Shown here piece by piece: positions 33,171-38,258 of a stretch of DNA of 59,298 nt (position 1 is its first letter; every line of letters begins with the position of its first letter). This stretch comes from Magnetococcales bacterium (GTDB taxonomy: Bacteria > Pseudomonadota > Magnetococcia > Magnetococcales > Magnetaquicoccaceae). Made by a program: the position numbers and the translations under genes. Location: positions 1-59,298 of the forward strand of contig JADFYM010000005.1 of NCBI GenBank assembly GCA_015233035.1, given 5' to 3'. The notes below the pieces were generated by a model. The model had not been told where the DNA came from and made no database searches. It worked only from the letters and a program-made list of their open reading frames with translations.

Positions 33171-33290
33171 GGGGTCCAGGGGGATTATCCCCCTGGCGGG
33201 TCCAGGGCAGAGCCCTGGTGGGGTTCGGGGCGAAGCCCCGGAAGGGGTAGGTGCCTTACCCCGCCAGGGGAGATCATTTCCTCTGGATTC
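33171..33290. repeat. Family C hairpin cluster downstream of dnaA
   Basis: At least five palindromic modules lie in tandem: CCAGGGGGATTATCCCCCTGG, CCAGGGCAGAGCCCTGG, CGGGGCGAAGCCCCG, GGGGTAGGTGCCTTACCCC and a CCAGGGGAGATCATTTCCTCTGG-like stem. No DnaA box (TTATCCACA-like) is seen here, so this is not an evident replication origin. Confidence 0.8.
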
Positions 33291-33371
33291 CATAGGATTG
33301 TACCCGTCAAATCACGTTGACTGAACCAGTCAGGTGGTGGGGATGGGGTTTGGATGATTGTGGTGAGCAGA

Positions 33372-33522
33372 GGCCTTGATCATTGTTTCATCCACGAACT
33401 CTCCTGGATGCCCGCTTTCGCGGGCATGACGGGAATGGGTGTGACACGAAATTTGCTCGTCATTCCCGCGAAGGCGGGAATCCAAGGTTCTGACTGGGAT
33501 GGCCGAAACGATGATCAAGGCC
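33372..33522. mobile_element. MITE-like element, family B, copy 3, with 8-bp target duplication
   Basis: A 151-bp element with ends GGCCTTGATCATTGTTTC and GAAACGATGATCAAGGCC (reverse complement on the right, one mismatch). It is flanked on both sides by the perfect 8-bp direct repeat TGAGCAGA (33364-33371 and 33523-33530), the mark of transposition. It lies between dnaA and dnaN. Confidence 0.9.
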
Positions 33523-33540
33523 TGAGCAGAGGGAGGCGGG

Positions 33541-33627
33541 GTTTGACCAGGGGCTTTGCCCCTGGACCCCACCAGGGGCTTTGCCCCTGGACCCCACCAG
33601 GGGGATGATCCCCCTGGACCCGCAATA
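33541..33627. repeat. Family C hairpin cluster upstream of dnaN
   Basis: Two near-identical CCAGGGGCTTTGCCCCTGG modules and one CCAGGGGGATGATCCCCCTGG module are joined by ACCC linkers. With the cluster at 33171 and the MITE at 33372 they fill most of the dnaA-dnaN gap; the remainder up to 33752 is AT-rich and likely holds the dnaN promoter, though none is called. Confidence 0.8.
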
Positions 33628-34890: not shown

Positions 34891-36012
34891 ATGGTATTGG
34901 AGCGGTTGCGTATCCAGGATTTTCGCAACATTGCGCTGGCCGTTCTGGAATGGGATGCCGGGCTGAATGGGGTGGTGGGGGGCAATGGGCAGGGCAAGAC
35001 CAATCTGCTGGAGGCGATTGGTTTGTTGGCCAGCGGTCGTTCTTTTCGGCGTGCCCCGTCGGCGGCTTTGCGTCGGCATGGTCAGGCGGGTTTTTATCTC
35101 CATGCGGAGGTGACCAGCTTTGGTCTGCGGCACGATCTGGAATTGACCGCCCTGGGGGCGCATGTCTCGGTGCGTCTCAATGGCAAGGGGATCACCACGG
35201 CGTCGGCCATGGGGCAGGTGTTGGCGGCCATTGTCCTCACCCCGGACGCGCCCGCCCTCATGCGCGGGGCCCCGGAGGAGCGGCGGAGTTATCTGGATTG
35301 GATCCTGTTTTGTCACGAGCGCAGTTATGCCGGTGTGGTCCGCGATTATCAGGTGGCTTTGCGGGCCCGCAATCATCTCCTGCGCACCCAGTGCGGGGAT
35401 GGGCGGCAGTTTGATGCCTGGGAGGCGCGCCTGGCCGTGCTGGGGGCGCAGATCACCCGGCAACGCCAGCAGATGCTGCACCGGGTCGGCGAGCGGTTGC
35501 AGCCGTTTCTGGAGGCCATGGCCTTGGATCCCAACGGCTATTTGTGGCAGATGCGCATCCAGCCGGGGGATCTCCAGGAGGCGGGGGCCGATGCGGTGGC
35601 CTCTTTGGCCGCAGGCTATCGGACCTTGTTGGCGCGCAGTCGCCTGCCGGATCAACGCAGTGGCAGTACCAGCGTGGGTCCGCACCGGGATGATCCCGCG
35701 TTTGTGCAAAACGGGCGCGCCCTGGCCCGGTTTGGCTCGCGGGGGCAGCAAAAACGTTTCTTGTTGGCCCTCAAGCTGACGGAGGCCGATTTGTTGCGGG
35801 AACGGTTGGGCGAGGCCCCGGTGTTGTTGTTGGATGATCCCATGACCGAACTCGACCCGGAGGGGATGGCCCGCCTGCTGCGCTTGTTGGCGGCGGGGAG
35901 CAGCCAAATTTTTCTGGCCACCTGTGCGGCGGAGCAGATCCAGTGGCCTTCCGCACGACCGGTGCGCTGTGTTGCGGTGGAGGAGGGGGTGTTTCGGGCG
36001 GTAGACTGTTGA
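34891..36012 (+). CDS. recF: RecF recombination mediator
   Basis: SMC-like ABC ATPase that helps load RecA at gapped DNA, 373 residues. Walker A is GGNGQGKTNLLEAI (residues 30-43) after the RecF start LERLRIQDFRNI. The signature region is SVGPHRDDPAF and ARFGSRGQQKRFLLALKLTEADLL, and Walker B is VLLLDDPMTELDPEG. The 7-bp distance to dnaN indicates one transcript. The next gene, the kinase at 36028, follows only 15 bp later, so it may be read from the same messenger. Confidence 0.97.
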   Translation: MVLERLRIQDFRNIALAVLEWDAGLNGVVGGNGQGKTNLLEAIGLLASGRSFRRAPSAALRRHGQAGFYLHAEVTSFGLRHDLELTALGAHVSVRLNGKGITTASAMGQVLAAIVLTPDAPALMRGAPEERRSYLDWILFCHERSYAGVVRDYQVALRARNHLLRTQCGDGRQFDAWEARLAVLGAQITRQRQQMLHRVGERLQPFLEAMALDPNGYLWQMRIQPGDLQEAGADAVASLAAGYRTLLARSRLPDQRSGSTSVGPHRDDPAFVQNGRALARFGSRGQQKRFLLALKLTEADLLRERLGEAPVLLLDDPMTELDPEGMARLLRLLAAGSSQIFLATCAAEQIQWPSARPVRCVAVEEGVFRAVDC

Positions 36013-36027
36013 TTTTGAGGAAGATGT

Positions 36028-36960
36028 ATGCCGGGACATGAACAACAGGTCACGGAGGTCATCGATATAACCGGGTGGCATCCAGATGACCGATTCCCAG
36101 TTTATCCTGAGGGGTCTCGGGCAAAATCCTTGTGGATCAGCCCTCATCCTCCATCCATGCCGTTCCTGATTGGCGGGCATCGTTATCTGTTCAAACATGC
36201 CGCACAAAATTATCCGACTCAATTCTGGTGCGAGGTGATCGCCTACCGCATTGGCTGTCTGATGGGCATTCCGGTCCCTCCGGCTTATGCTGCGTGGAGG
36301 GCTGGTGACCAAAAATCTGCTGCCCTGATTGAATGGTTCTATCGTCAGGATGAGGGGGTGTGCTACGAGTCGGGTACCGTCCATATGCAAAGGCTGATTC
36401 CCGATTTCGATGTCAAAAAGGGCCGTCAACACAATATTGAAACTGTACTGGCCATTCTTGCAGAAATGGATGCCCGCTTGATCCAAGACATGGTACGGAT
36501 TCTTGTTTTCGATGCGCTGATCGGTAACACCGACCGGCATCAGGAAAACTGGGGAATTTTATGGAGAGGAACTCCAGTACGACCAGAACTGGCTCCGGCT
36601 TTTGACAATGGCACAAGCCTTGGTTATGAAATGACGGATGACGGGATTGCCCAATTTATGGCAAACCCGGTTGAGCAAACGGAACGCTATATTGACAGAG
36701 GGCGGCACCATATGCGTTGGAACCCAACCGGGGCAAAATACGGTCATTTCGAGCTGGTTGCATATTTGCTTGCCAAGTATCCAGAATTCAGACAAAATAT
36801 TGCCGATTGTCTTTCGTTTGACAGGAATGTCCTGTATGCCTGGATGCATCTTCTGCCCCGTTTTCCTGTACCAGCGGCTCCCACGCCGGTACGAATCCAA
36901 TGGATCGAACGGTTGCTCCAACTCCGAATGAAGCGGTTGCATTCGGTTCTTGATATGTAG
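36028..36960 (+). CDS. HipA/HipT-like kinase lacking the N-subdomain
   Basis: Predicted Ser/Thr-type kinase of the HipA C-terminal superfamily, 310 residues. A nucleotide-binding Lys is likely K56 in YLFKHA. The catalytic loop is ALIGNTDRHQENWGIL with D169 and N174, and the metal-binding Asp is D193 in LAPAFDNGTSLG. Full-length HipA toxins have an extra N-terminal subdomain of about 100 residues; here it is absent, as in the kinase of split HipBST systems. The next gene appears to carry that part. No HipB-like DNA-binding antitoxin gene is adjacent. AGG-rich bases precede the ATG, and 15 bp separate it from recF. It could be a toxin or phage-defence kinase; its substrate is unknown. Confidence 0.8.
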   Translation: MPGHEQQVTEVIDITGWHPDDRFPVYPEGSRAKSLWISPHPPSMPFLIGGHRYLFKHAAQNYPTQFWCEVIAYRIGCLMGIPVPPAYAAWRAGDQKSAALIEWFYRQDEGVCYESGTVHMQRLIPDFDVKKGRQHNIETVLAILAEMDARLIQDMVRILVFDALIGNTDRHQENWGILWRGTPVRPELAPAFDNGTSLGYEMTDDGIAQFMANPVEQTERYIDRGRHHMRWNPTGAKYGHFELVAYLLAKYPEFRQNIADCLSFDRNVLYAWMHLLPRFPVPAAPTPVRIQWIERLLQLRMKRLHSVLDM

Positions 36961-36971
36961 GAGTTTAAGTT

Positions 36972-37742
36972 ATGAACCGAACGATTTTGCATGTTGTTGA
37001 GCCAGAGCATCTGTTGTTGGCTTGGCAAGCCCCGGATGCTACACCGCACGGTCGAACCCGGAGAAAGGTGGCGGAAATCGCTGCCGACGCAACCGGTACC
37101 ATTGGTTTGCGCTATCTGAAGGGAACGGAAGATTTTGCTGCCGCCCTGTCCGCCGGGTTTCTGGGCTATCCAGCCTTTCCTCTGGACCAGGATTACTATA
37201 CGTCTGGCATTGTGGAAACGTTCATGCGGCGTATGCCCCCCAAGAGAAGGCGGGATTATGATGATTTCCTGCGCTTTTGGCGACTCGATCCTGCTCTGTC
37301 AATCAGTCCCTTGGCTTTGTTGGGTTATGTGGGTGCGCAGTTGCCTGGAGATGGATTTTCCCTGGTTCATCCGTTTGATACGGCAAAACCGCCGTTTGAA
37401 TTTCTGGAGCAAGTGGCTGGATTTCGTTATATGCCGGATGCCCAAGAAATCTGTGCATTACTCCATGAGGGGCAGGAGGTTTATTTGCGGCCAGATCCAG
37501 ACAATACCCATGATCCCTTGGCGATTCGAATCGAATTGGCAGATAATCGTCCGATCGGTTTTGTCAACAAATTACAGGCCCCTGGTCTGCATCGCTGGTT
37601 GGATATTCCCGGGGTGCGCGGTTTCATTGACCGCATCAATGGTAGCGAGTCTCGACCATTGATTTACGTGTTTCTTGAAGTCGGTGGAACATCATGCGAA
37701 AAAACTGGATCGCAGCTTGACGGTCCTCAGGCCCAGGAATAA
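36972..37742 (+). CDS. HIRAN-domain protein with HipA N-subdomain-like region
   Basis: A 256-residue partner of the upstream kinase. The C-terminal part (about 143-240) fits a HIRAN domain: VAGFRYMPDAQEICALLHEGQEV, LRPDPDNTHDPLAIRI and PIGFVNKLQAPGL; HIRAN domains bind 3' DNA ends or act in DNA-repair proteins. The first 135 residues resemble the HipA N-subdomain in layout: a strand-rich start, GYPAFPLDQDYYTSG where HipA has SPAFPLS-type text, and PLALLGYVGAQLPGDGF where HipA has LLGAxGxDCAGA-type text. That similarity is my reading of pattern, not an alignment. The Shine-Dalgarno AGGAG overlaps the upstream TAG, so translation is coupled. I infer a regulator or DNA-targeting subunit. Confidence 0.72.
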   Translation: MNRTILHVVEPEHLLLAWQAPDATPHGRTRRKVAEIAADATGTIGLRYLKGTEDFAAALSAGFLGYPAFPLDQDYYTSGIVETFMRRMPPKRRRDYDDFLRFWRLDPALSISPLALLGYVGAQLPGDGFSLVHPFDTAKPPFEFLEQVAGFRYMPDAQEICALLHEGQEVYLRPDPDNTHDPLAIRIELADNRPIGFVNKLQAPGLHRWLDIPGVRGFIDRINGSESRPLIYVFLEVGGTSCEKTGSQLDGPQAQE

Positions 37743-37775: not shown

Positions 37776-38258
37776 ATGGAACCGGATGTATTGTGTCAAA
37801 AGATTGGGCAATGGTTCAATACCCACAAGGATGAGGAGCCGTTTGCCTTTGGCGAGGTTCACCTGCTGACCGGTGAGCCGGGGGCCGATATCTGGCTGAT
37901 CATCGGCAAGATTGCCAAGGAGACGCCGGATCGGCGAGCCTACGAGAAACAGTGGGAAAACACCCTGTATGACCATCCCGTGACCTGGATCTGGCAAAAA
38001 CTGGCCGATGGGGAGGCCGATGCCTGGTTGCGCCTTATCTACGAAAACCGGTTGCACGACAAGAAACGGCAAATGCTGCAAGCCCTGTTGGAACTGGCCC
38101 GGTTGATCGAAAATAATGGCTATGAAATCGAGTGGGAGGCGGAAACGGAAGGGGTATGGCTGACCGAGATTCCCATCCGGCGGACGACAGAAAAAAATAC
38201 CTATGAAGCCGACCGTTGGCAGGAGTTGCTGGCAGAACTGGGCGTGGATGCGGTATAA
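37776..38258 (+). CDS. Uncharacterised acidic protein
   Basis: A 160-residue soluble protein that I do not recognise. It is acidic, rich in Trp, Glu and Asp, and mostly helical by eye, with segments such as GEVHLLTGEPGADIWLIIGKIA, HPVTWIWQKLADGEADAWLRL and KRQMLQALLELARLIENNGYEIEW. No signal peptide or membrane helix is seen. It follows the HIRAN gene by 33 bp on the same strand, so it may be the third gene of that cassette, or simply a housekeeping neighbour of the GGDEF gene 45 bp downstream. Confidence 0.7.
   Translation: MEPDVLCQKIGQWFNTHKDEEPFAFGEVHLLTGEPGADIWLIIGKIAKETPDRRAYEKQWENTLYDHPVTWIWQKLADGEADAWLRLIYENRLHDKKRQMLQALLELARLIENNGYEIEWEAETEGVWLTEIPIRRTTEKNTYEADRWQELLAELGVDAV

Follow-up and report, generated by a model that had tools for sequence, protein, structure and literature searches.

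HIRAN is a domain known from eukaryotic repair proteins that binds DNA ends rather than reading sequence. The closest described relatives of the locus considered here are systems in which the parts of a HipA-type kinase are encoded by separate genes. In hipBST (E. coli O127, Legionella), the core kinase HipT is accompanied by HipB and by HipS, a separate protein that resembles N-subdomain-1 and has no HIRAN domain; the gene order is B-S-T, and inhibition of HipT by HipS is experimentally established, Trp65 in the inhibitory loop of HipS blocking HipT (PMC10627512). A further split arrangement was named hipIN, and its fused form hipL, by Gerdes, Baerentsen and Brodersen (2021); it comprises a short core kinase, HipI (279-321 aa, with four core motifs), that lacks N-subdomain-1, followed by a gene for a protein with a HipS-like N-terminal domain and a C-terminal HIRAN domain, HipN, without HipB (PMC8262856). 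These authors proposed that HIRAN, on sensing ends of phage DNA or intermediates, releases the kinase and so brings about abortive infection, with neutralization of HipI by HipN given as putative; they also report that the duplex-binding Phe of HLTF is missing from most bacterial HIRAN domains and that HipI mostly carries Ser/Thr near the Gly-rich loop (PMC8262856). Roughly a third of diDNase genes have a HIRAN-HipA gene pair next to them, and a defence prediction is mentioned for these pairs (PMC11706625). PADLOC-DB contains an adjacent pair of families, PDC-M03A and PDC-M03B, as a candidate defence label only. A literature search turned up neither experimental work on a hipIN or hipL system nor paper text on PDC-M03. 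If the published hypothesis is true, such genes would place a growth-arresting kinase under the control of a DNA-end-binding domain, as a system for defence or for the response to damage.

The window is the whole stretch of 59,298 nucleotides analysed here, from a Magnetococcales bacterium. Its forward strand carries hipI (36028-36960; 310 aa) and hipN (36972-37742; 256 aa), both at the positions given in a preliminary description of this DNA, which was also right that the kinase gene comes first, the reverse of the HipBST order, and that no HipB gene is present at the locus. The neighbours, which lie outside the module, are recF on the left (34891-36012, forward strand) and an unrelated conserved gene on the right (37776-38258, forward strand; 160 aa, no Pfam family). 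The hipI stop codon (36958-36960) and the hipN ATG at 36972 leave two open reading frames with an 11-nt gap and a plausible ribosome site before hipN. In relatives the two genes overlap or are spaced by a few bases, and distant homologues show overlap or fusion. The preliminary description had called the genes translationally coupled, which was too strong for two genes 11 nt apart; coupling in the window is possible.

HipI has the features of a HipA-type core Ser/Thr kinase, with matches to Pfam HipA_C (1.5e-14), PADLOC PDC-M03A (6.2e-45) and PHROG 26212 (5.5e-45), a single family of 547 positions that spans HipI and HipN together; a profile of the HipI family matches CtkA and Legionella HipT in the PDB. 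The Gly-rich loop, Y26-P-E-G-S-R-A-K33 (36103-36126), lies at the very N-terminus and N-subdomain-1 is absent, as expected from the earlier proposal of a HipA C-terminal-type core that lacks its N-subdomain. In an alignment of 27 kinases (A4) the consensus of this loop is Y/F-P-x-G-A-R-x-K, P27, G29 and R31 being present in every sequence and K33 in 26. The catalytic loop, N167-T-D169-R-H-Q-E-N174-W175 (36526-36552), and the metal site at D193, on which that proposal was based, are likewise conserved in the 27 homologues: N167, D169, R170, H171, Q172, N174 and W175 are invariant, and the metal-binding D193-N194-G195 (36604-36612; 27/27) belongs to a D193-N-G-T-S motif that is invariant or nearly so. 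Equivalences between HipI or HipN and HipT, HipS or HLTF are based on alignment by motif; with the Gly-rich loops matched in this way, HipI has no Ser at the positions of the HipT phosphoserines S57 and S59.

HipN matches PADLOC PDC-M03B (4.5e-25) and, over residues 147-214, Pfam HIRAN (5.6e-7). A Foldseek search of the PDB with its AlphaFold model (37 sequences; pLDDT 93.2, pTM 0.87) gave HLTF HIRAN-DNA structures (1.3e-6) and the bacterial protein lp_0118 as best matches, followed by weaker matches to HipA (3tpd, probability 0.84; 3tpt, probability 0.92 over 124 columns). HMM comparison of the HIRAN half also matched HLTF and lp_0118. The partner had been described as the missing kinase N-subdomain joined to a HIRAN domain, with a predicted structure offered as a check; the model does contain a HipA N-subdomain-1-like, or HipS-like, fold in residues ~1-135 (36972-37376), with HIRAN at residues ~142-237 (37395-37682). 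The N-terminal half of the window HipN has no Pfam match by itself. Couple_hipA, the Pfam family of the HipA N-terminal domain, matches 14 of 37 HipN homologues (best 2e-4) and is, besides HIRAN, the only family that recurs widely among them; in Escherichia phage 899, where kinase and HIRAN are fused, a stretch that separates them (residues 315-409) scores above the Pfam cut-off for Couple_hipA. Alignment of the HipN N-terminal part with HipA N-domains by hhalign gave a weak match that is not decisive (E 0.011; shuffles gave 0.19-0.73, but the HIRAN half gave 0.031). The natural fusion L130, modelled from a small clean alignment (A10) at moderate quality (pLDDT 79, pTM 0.65), matches CtkA, HipA, HipT and HIRAN.

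The HipN loop that aligns with the inhibitory loop of HipS reads R87-M-P-P-K-R-R93-R-D95 in the window and R-L-P-P-R-x-R-x-D as the consensus of 37 proteins, in which R87, R93 and D95 are invariant; by motif alignment, none of the 37 has a Trp at the position of HipS Trp65, which is variable. HipN shares with the HIRAN domain of HLTF the fold and the area of the DNA-contact motif (G-x-R-Y ... D-x-N-x-x-D): R152 is kept in 34 of the 37 proteins, N178 in 35 and D181 in 34, the window copy having all three, and position 153 is Tyr or His. The HIRAN domain of HLTF, in contrast, is attached to a helicase, and its loop residues differ.

From its sequence the window pair is a member of hipIN and of PDC-M03, with adjacent matches to M03A and M03B, a 310-aa kinase with the four core motifs and no N-subdomain-1, and a downstream gene for a HipS-like N-terminal domain and a C-terminal HIRAN domain, without HipB. 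It differs from the published account of hipIN in that its branch has no conserved Ser/Thr at the positions of HipT autophosphorylation. The three domains have the same order as in hipL, but hipL is one chain (here L130 and Escherichia phage 899) whereas the window has two open reading frames. With HipBST the pair shares a core kinase and a separate N-subdomain-1-like protein, but membership of that group was ruled out, as there is no HipB and no Trp65-type residue. The module had been presented as not yet described; both the arrangement and the idea of a trigger by DNA ends or phage were in fact already published (PMC8262856), and PADLOC holds the pair as PDC-M03. The window copy is thus one more hipIN member, and what is added here is its acquisition at the site, counts of pairing, repeated loss of the kinase only, copies located within a restriction operon or next to CRISPR genes, and the non-conservation of the HipS Trp and the HipT serines; the kinase-only loss, the invariant Arg/Asp loop in place of Trp, the absence of a conserved autophosphorylation serine and these neighbourhoods are testable points.

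We consider it fairly probable that this horizontally acquired hipIN pair is a toxin-antitoxin-like defence module with a DNA-gated kinase toxin, with HipN as both inhibitor and sensor and with DNA ends freeing the kinase to cause arrest. HipN would hold HipI off through its HipS-like domain, seated in the place of HipA N-subdomain-1, while its HIRAN domain would bind single-stranded DNA or DNA ends. A build-up of such ends, or of replication intermediates, during phage infection or DNA damage would engage HIRAN and thereby alter the contact between HipN and HipI, and the freed kinase would phosphorylate a translation target or another essential target, arresting the cell. This reading joins observed parts (domain make-up, pairing and fusion, loss of the kinase with HipN kept, acquisition at the site, and the defence neighbourhoods of some relatives) with parts that we infer, namely the inhibition of HipI, the triggering by DNA, the target and the outcome. 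It is supported by the domain families and fold, constant pairing and fusion, parallel divergence and kinase-only loss, as well as by the cas, restriction-modification and integrase settings of some copies and the experimental inhibition of HipT by HipS (PMC10627512). Against it, Trp65 has no counterpart in HipN, so that inhibition through the same contact as in HipS is not established; the window copy lies among housekeeping genes; and the duplex-binding Phe is missing from most bacterial HIRAN domains (PMC8262856). A more specific version, in which the kinase switch is gated by phage DNA ends or single strands through a contact unlike that of the HipS Trp, without phosphoserine control of the HipT type, and leads to abortive infection, is put forward tentatively, as somewhat less likely than not.

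Relatives were drawn from Magnetococcales, a phylum sample, a second order, named genomes, viral contigs, and phage and plasmid records. Recurrence of the pair in other genomes, which had been suggested as a check, was found: about 24 of the genomic loci examined have an intact adjacent pair with the kinase first, and viral contigs, in which a scan with a single protein gave nothing and an alignment-based scan found the loci, add 11 loci, all with both parts and one of them (L130) a fusion. HipN lies immediately downstream at all examined loci with an intact kinase, and in the phylum sample every strong HipI match is adjoined by HipN. In Escherichia phage 899 the two parts form one chain, and in C. 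difficile phage phiCDKH02 the pair lies beside a phage integrase. Across 27 loci the distance matrices of HipI and HipN are correlated at r=0.94, whereas 1000 permutations reached 0.41 at most; dN/dS values of 0.07-0.23 show purifying selection on both genes. Constant pairing and fusion in one chain also fit an obligate complex, as in the main rival to the inhibitor reading: HipN may be an activator, HipI being inactive alone and HipN bringing it to the ends of DNA, with activity arising in the DNA-bound complex. The missing inhibitory Trp, and the absence, among the loci examined, of any intact kinase whose HipN is missing or broken, agree with this; we nevertheless regard it as unlikely, given that the homologous HipS inhibits HipT (PMC10627512) and given the pattern of gene loss.

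At six loci (L099, L100, L108, L109, L111 and L119) the kinase has been deleted, truncated or interrupted and a full HipN is kept; at L109 only the last few kinase codons remain before HipN. The dN/dS of HipN after kinase loss is 0.10-0.19, and thus not raised, and such retention in several lineages is not predicted for an obligate activator. A harmful kinase, as under inhibition by HipN, would be expected to be the part that is lost while HipN stays. That all six losses fall on the kinase side has a chance of ~0.016 under equal loss of either gene, a figure that is supportive only, since most of the cases stem from searching with HipN, the seed of the named-genome scan, and L100 and L119 may be sequencing errors. 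Both genes are degenerate at three other loci (L123, L124 and L143), and a few loci run off their contigs. A disrupted copy in another genome (G014; L059, 6485-7937) has a partial hipN start, a 97-aa open reading frame and the end of hipI, followed by a complete hipN.

In the window, hipI starts 15 nt past recF, a gap from which we judge that hipIN is probably transcribed from the dnaN-recF transcript. This spacing agrees with a reading of the pair as a host DNA-damage checkpoint tied to the dnaN-recF operon, which is nonetheless very improbable: in four genomes of the same genus (G002, G003, G004 and G006) the site is empty, recF and the right-flank gene being 0-26 nt apart; homologues lie elsewhere in other genomes, with no conserved hipIN-recF linkage seen in other lineages; and the composition is foreign, GC3 being 0.51 in hipI and 0.50 in hipN against 0.75-0.76 in dnaN and recF and 0.68-0.70 in downstream genes. 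The position directly behind dnaN-recF was correctly pointed out in the preliminary description but is not a conserved linkage; because of the empty sites and the foreign GC3 the pair is taken as acquired here, its proximity to dnaN-recF is incidental, and a functional link to these genes was ruled out. Judged by composition and empty sites, just these two genes were inserted in the window, by horizontal acquisition; no integrase gene lies between recF and the right-flank gene. The right-flank gene was considered as a third module gene and rejected, as it is conserved without hipIN: it is found in 17 of 31 relatives, including most genomes of the family, directly after recF within the genus and elsewhere unlinked to hipIN. 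Between dnaA and dnaN, at 33172-33621, a pair of 29-nt inverted repeats (93%) lies ~390 nt apart and encloses a 25-nt tandem duplication; this may belong to the origin region or constitute a small element.

The window copy is set among housekeeping genes, with no defence island. Some relatives lie in defence loci, and the other loci have ordinary neighbours. In three Halomonadaceae loci (roughly positions 6.9-12.3 kb of each), cas3 of type I CRISPR lies ~1 kb from hipN; a WYL-domain gene separates the two in L110 and in L111, and in L112 cse1 lies beyond cas3. These copies are hipIN or, in L111, HipN with a decayed kinase. At L119 HsdR is ~1.5 kb away, and on Rhodococcus plasmid NZ_CP088976.1 (L137, 1-6260) the order hsdR-hsdS-hipI-hipN-hsdM places the pair inside a type I restriction-modification operon. 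The cas and restriction-modification neighbourhoods of some copies are an association, not an enrichment. They suit defence better than a plain toxin-antitoxin addiction pair that holds mobile DNA and has no phage trigger, its HIRAN domain serving only to bind DNA or for autoregulation. Such a pair would accord with the patchy distribution, the insertion of foreign GC3 and the copies on phages and a plasmid, but HIRAN binds ends rather than reading sequence, and the bare two-gene insertion in the window has no island to stabilise; we think this explanation quite improbable.

Proteins with only some of these domains were also seen. At L050 (139-2731; genome G346) a 295-aa HipA-type kinase is followed by a 573-aa protein with a clear HipA N-terminal domain (Couple_hipA, 4.6e-10) that has a weak HTH and a long, unassigned C-terminus in place of HIRAN, possibly a variant with the sensor part swapped. 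At L035-L046, many short HIRAN proteins (~120-210 aa) lack the HipS-like part, and their match to PDC-M03B is confined to its HIRAN half.
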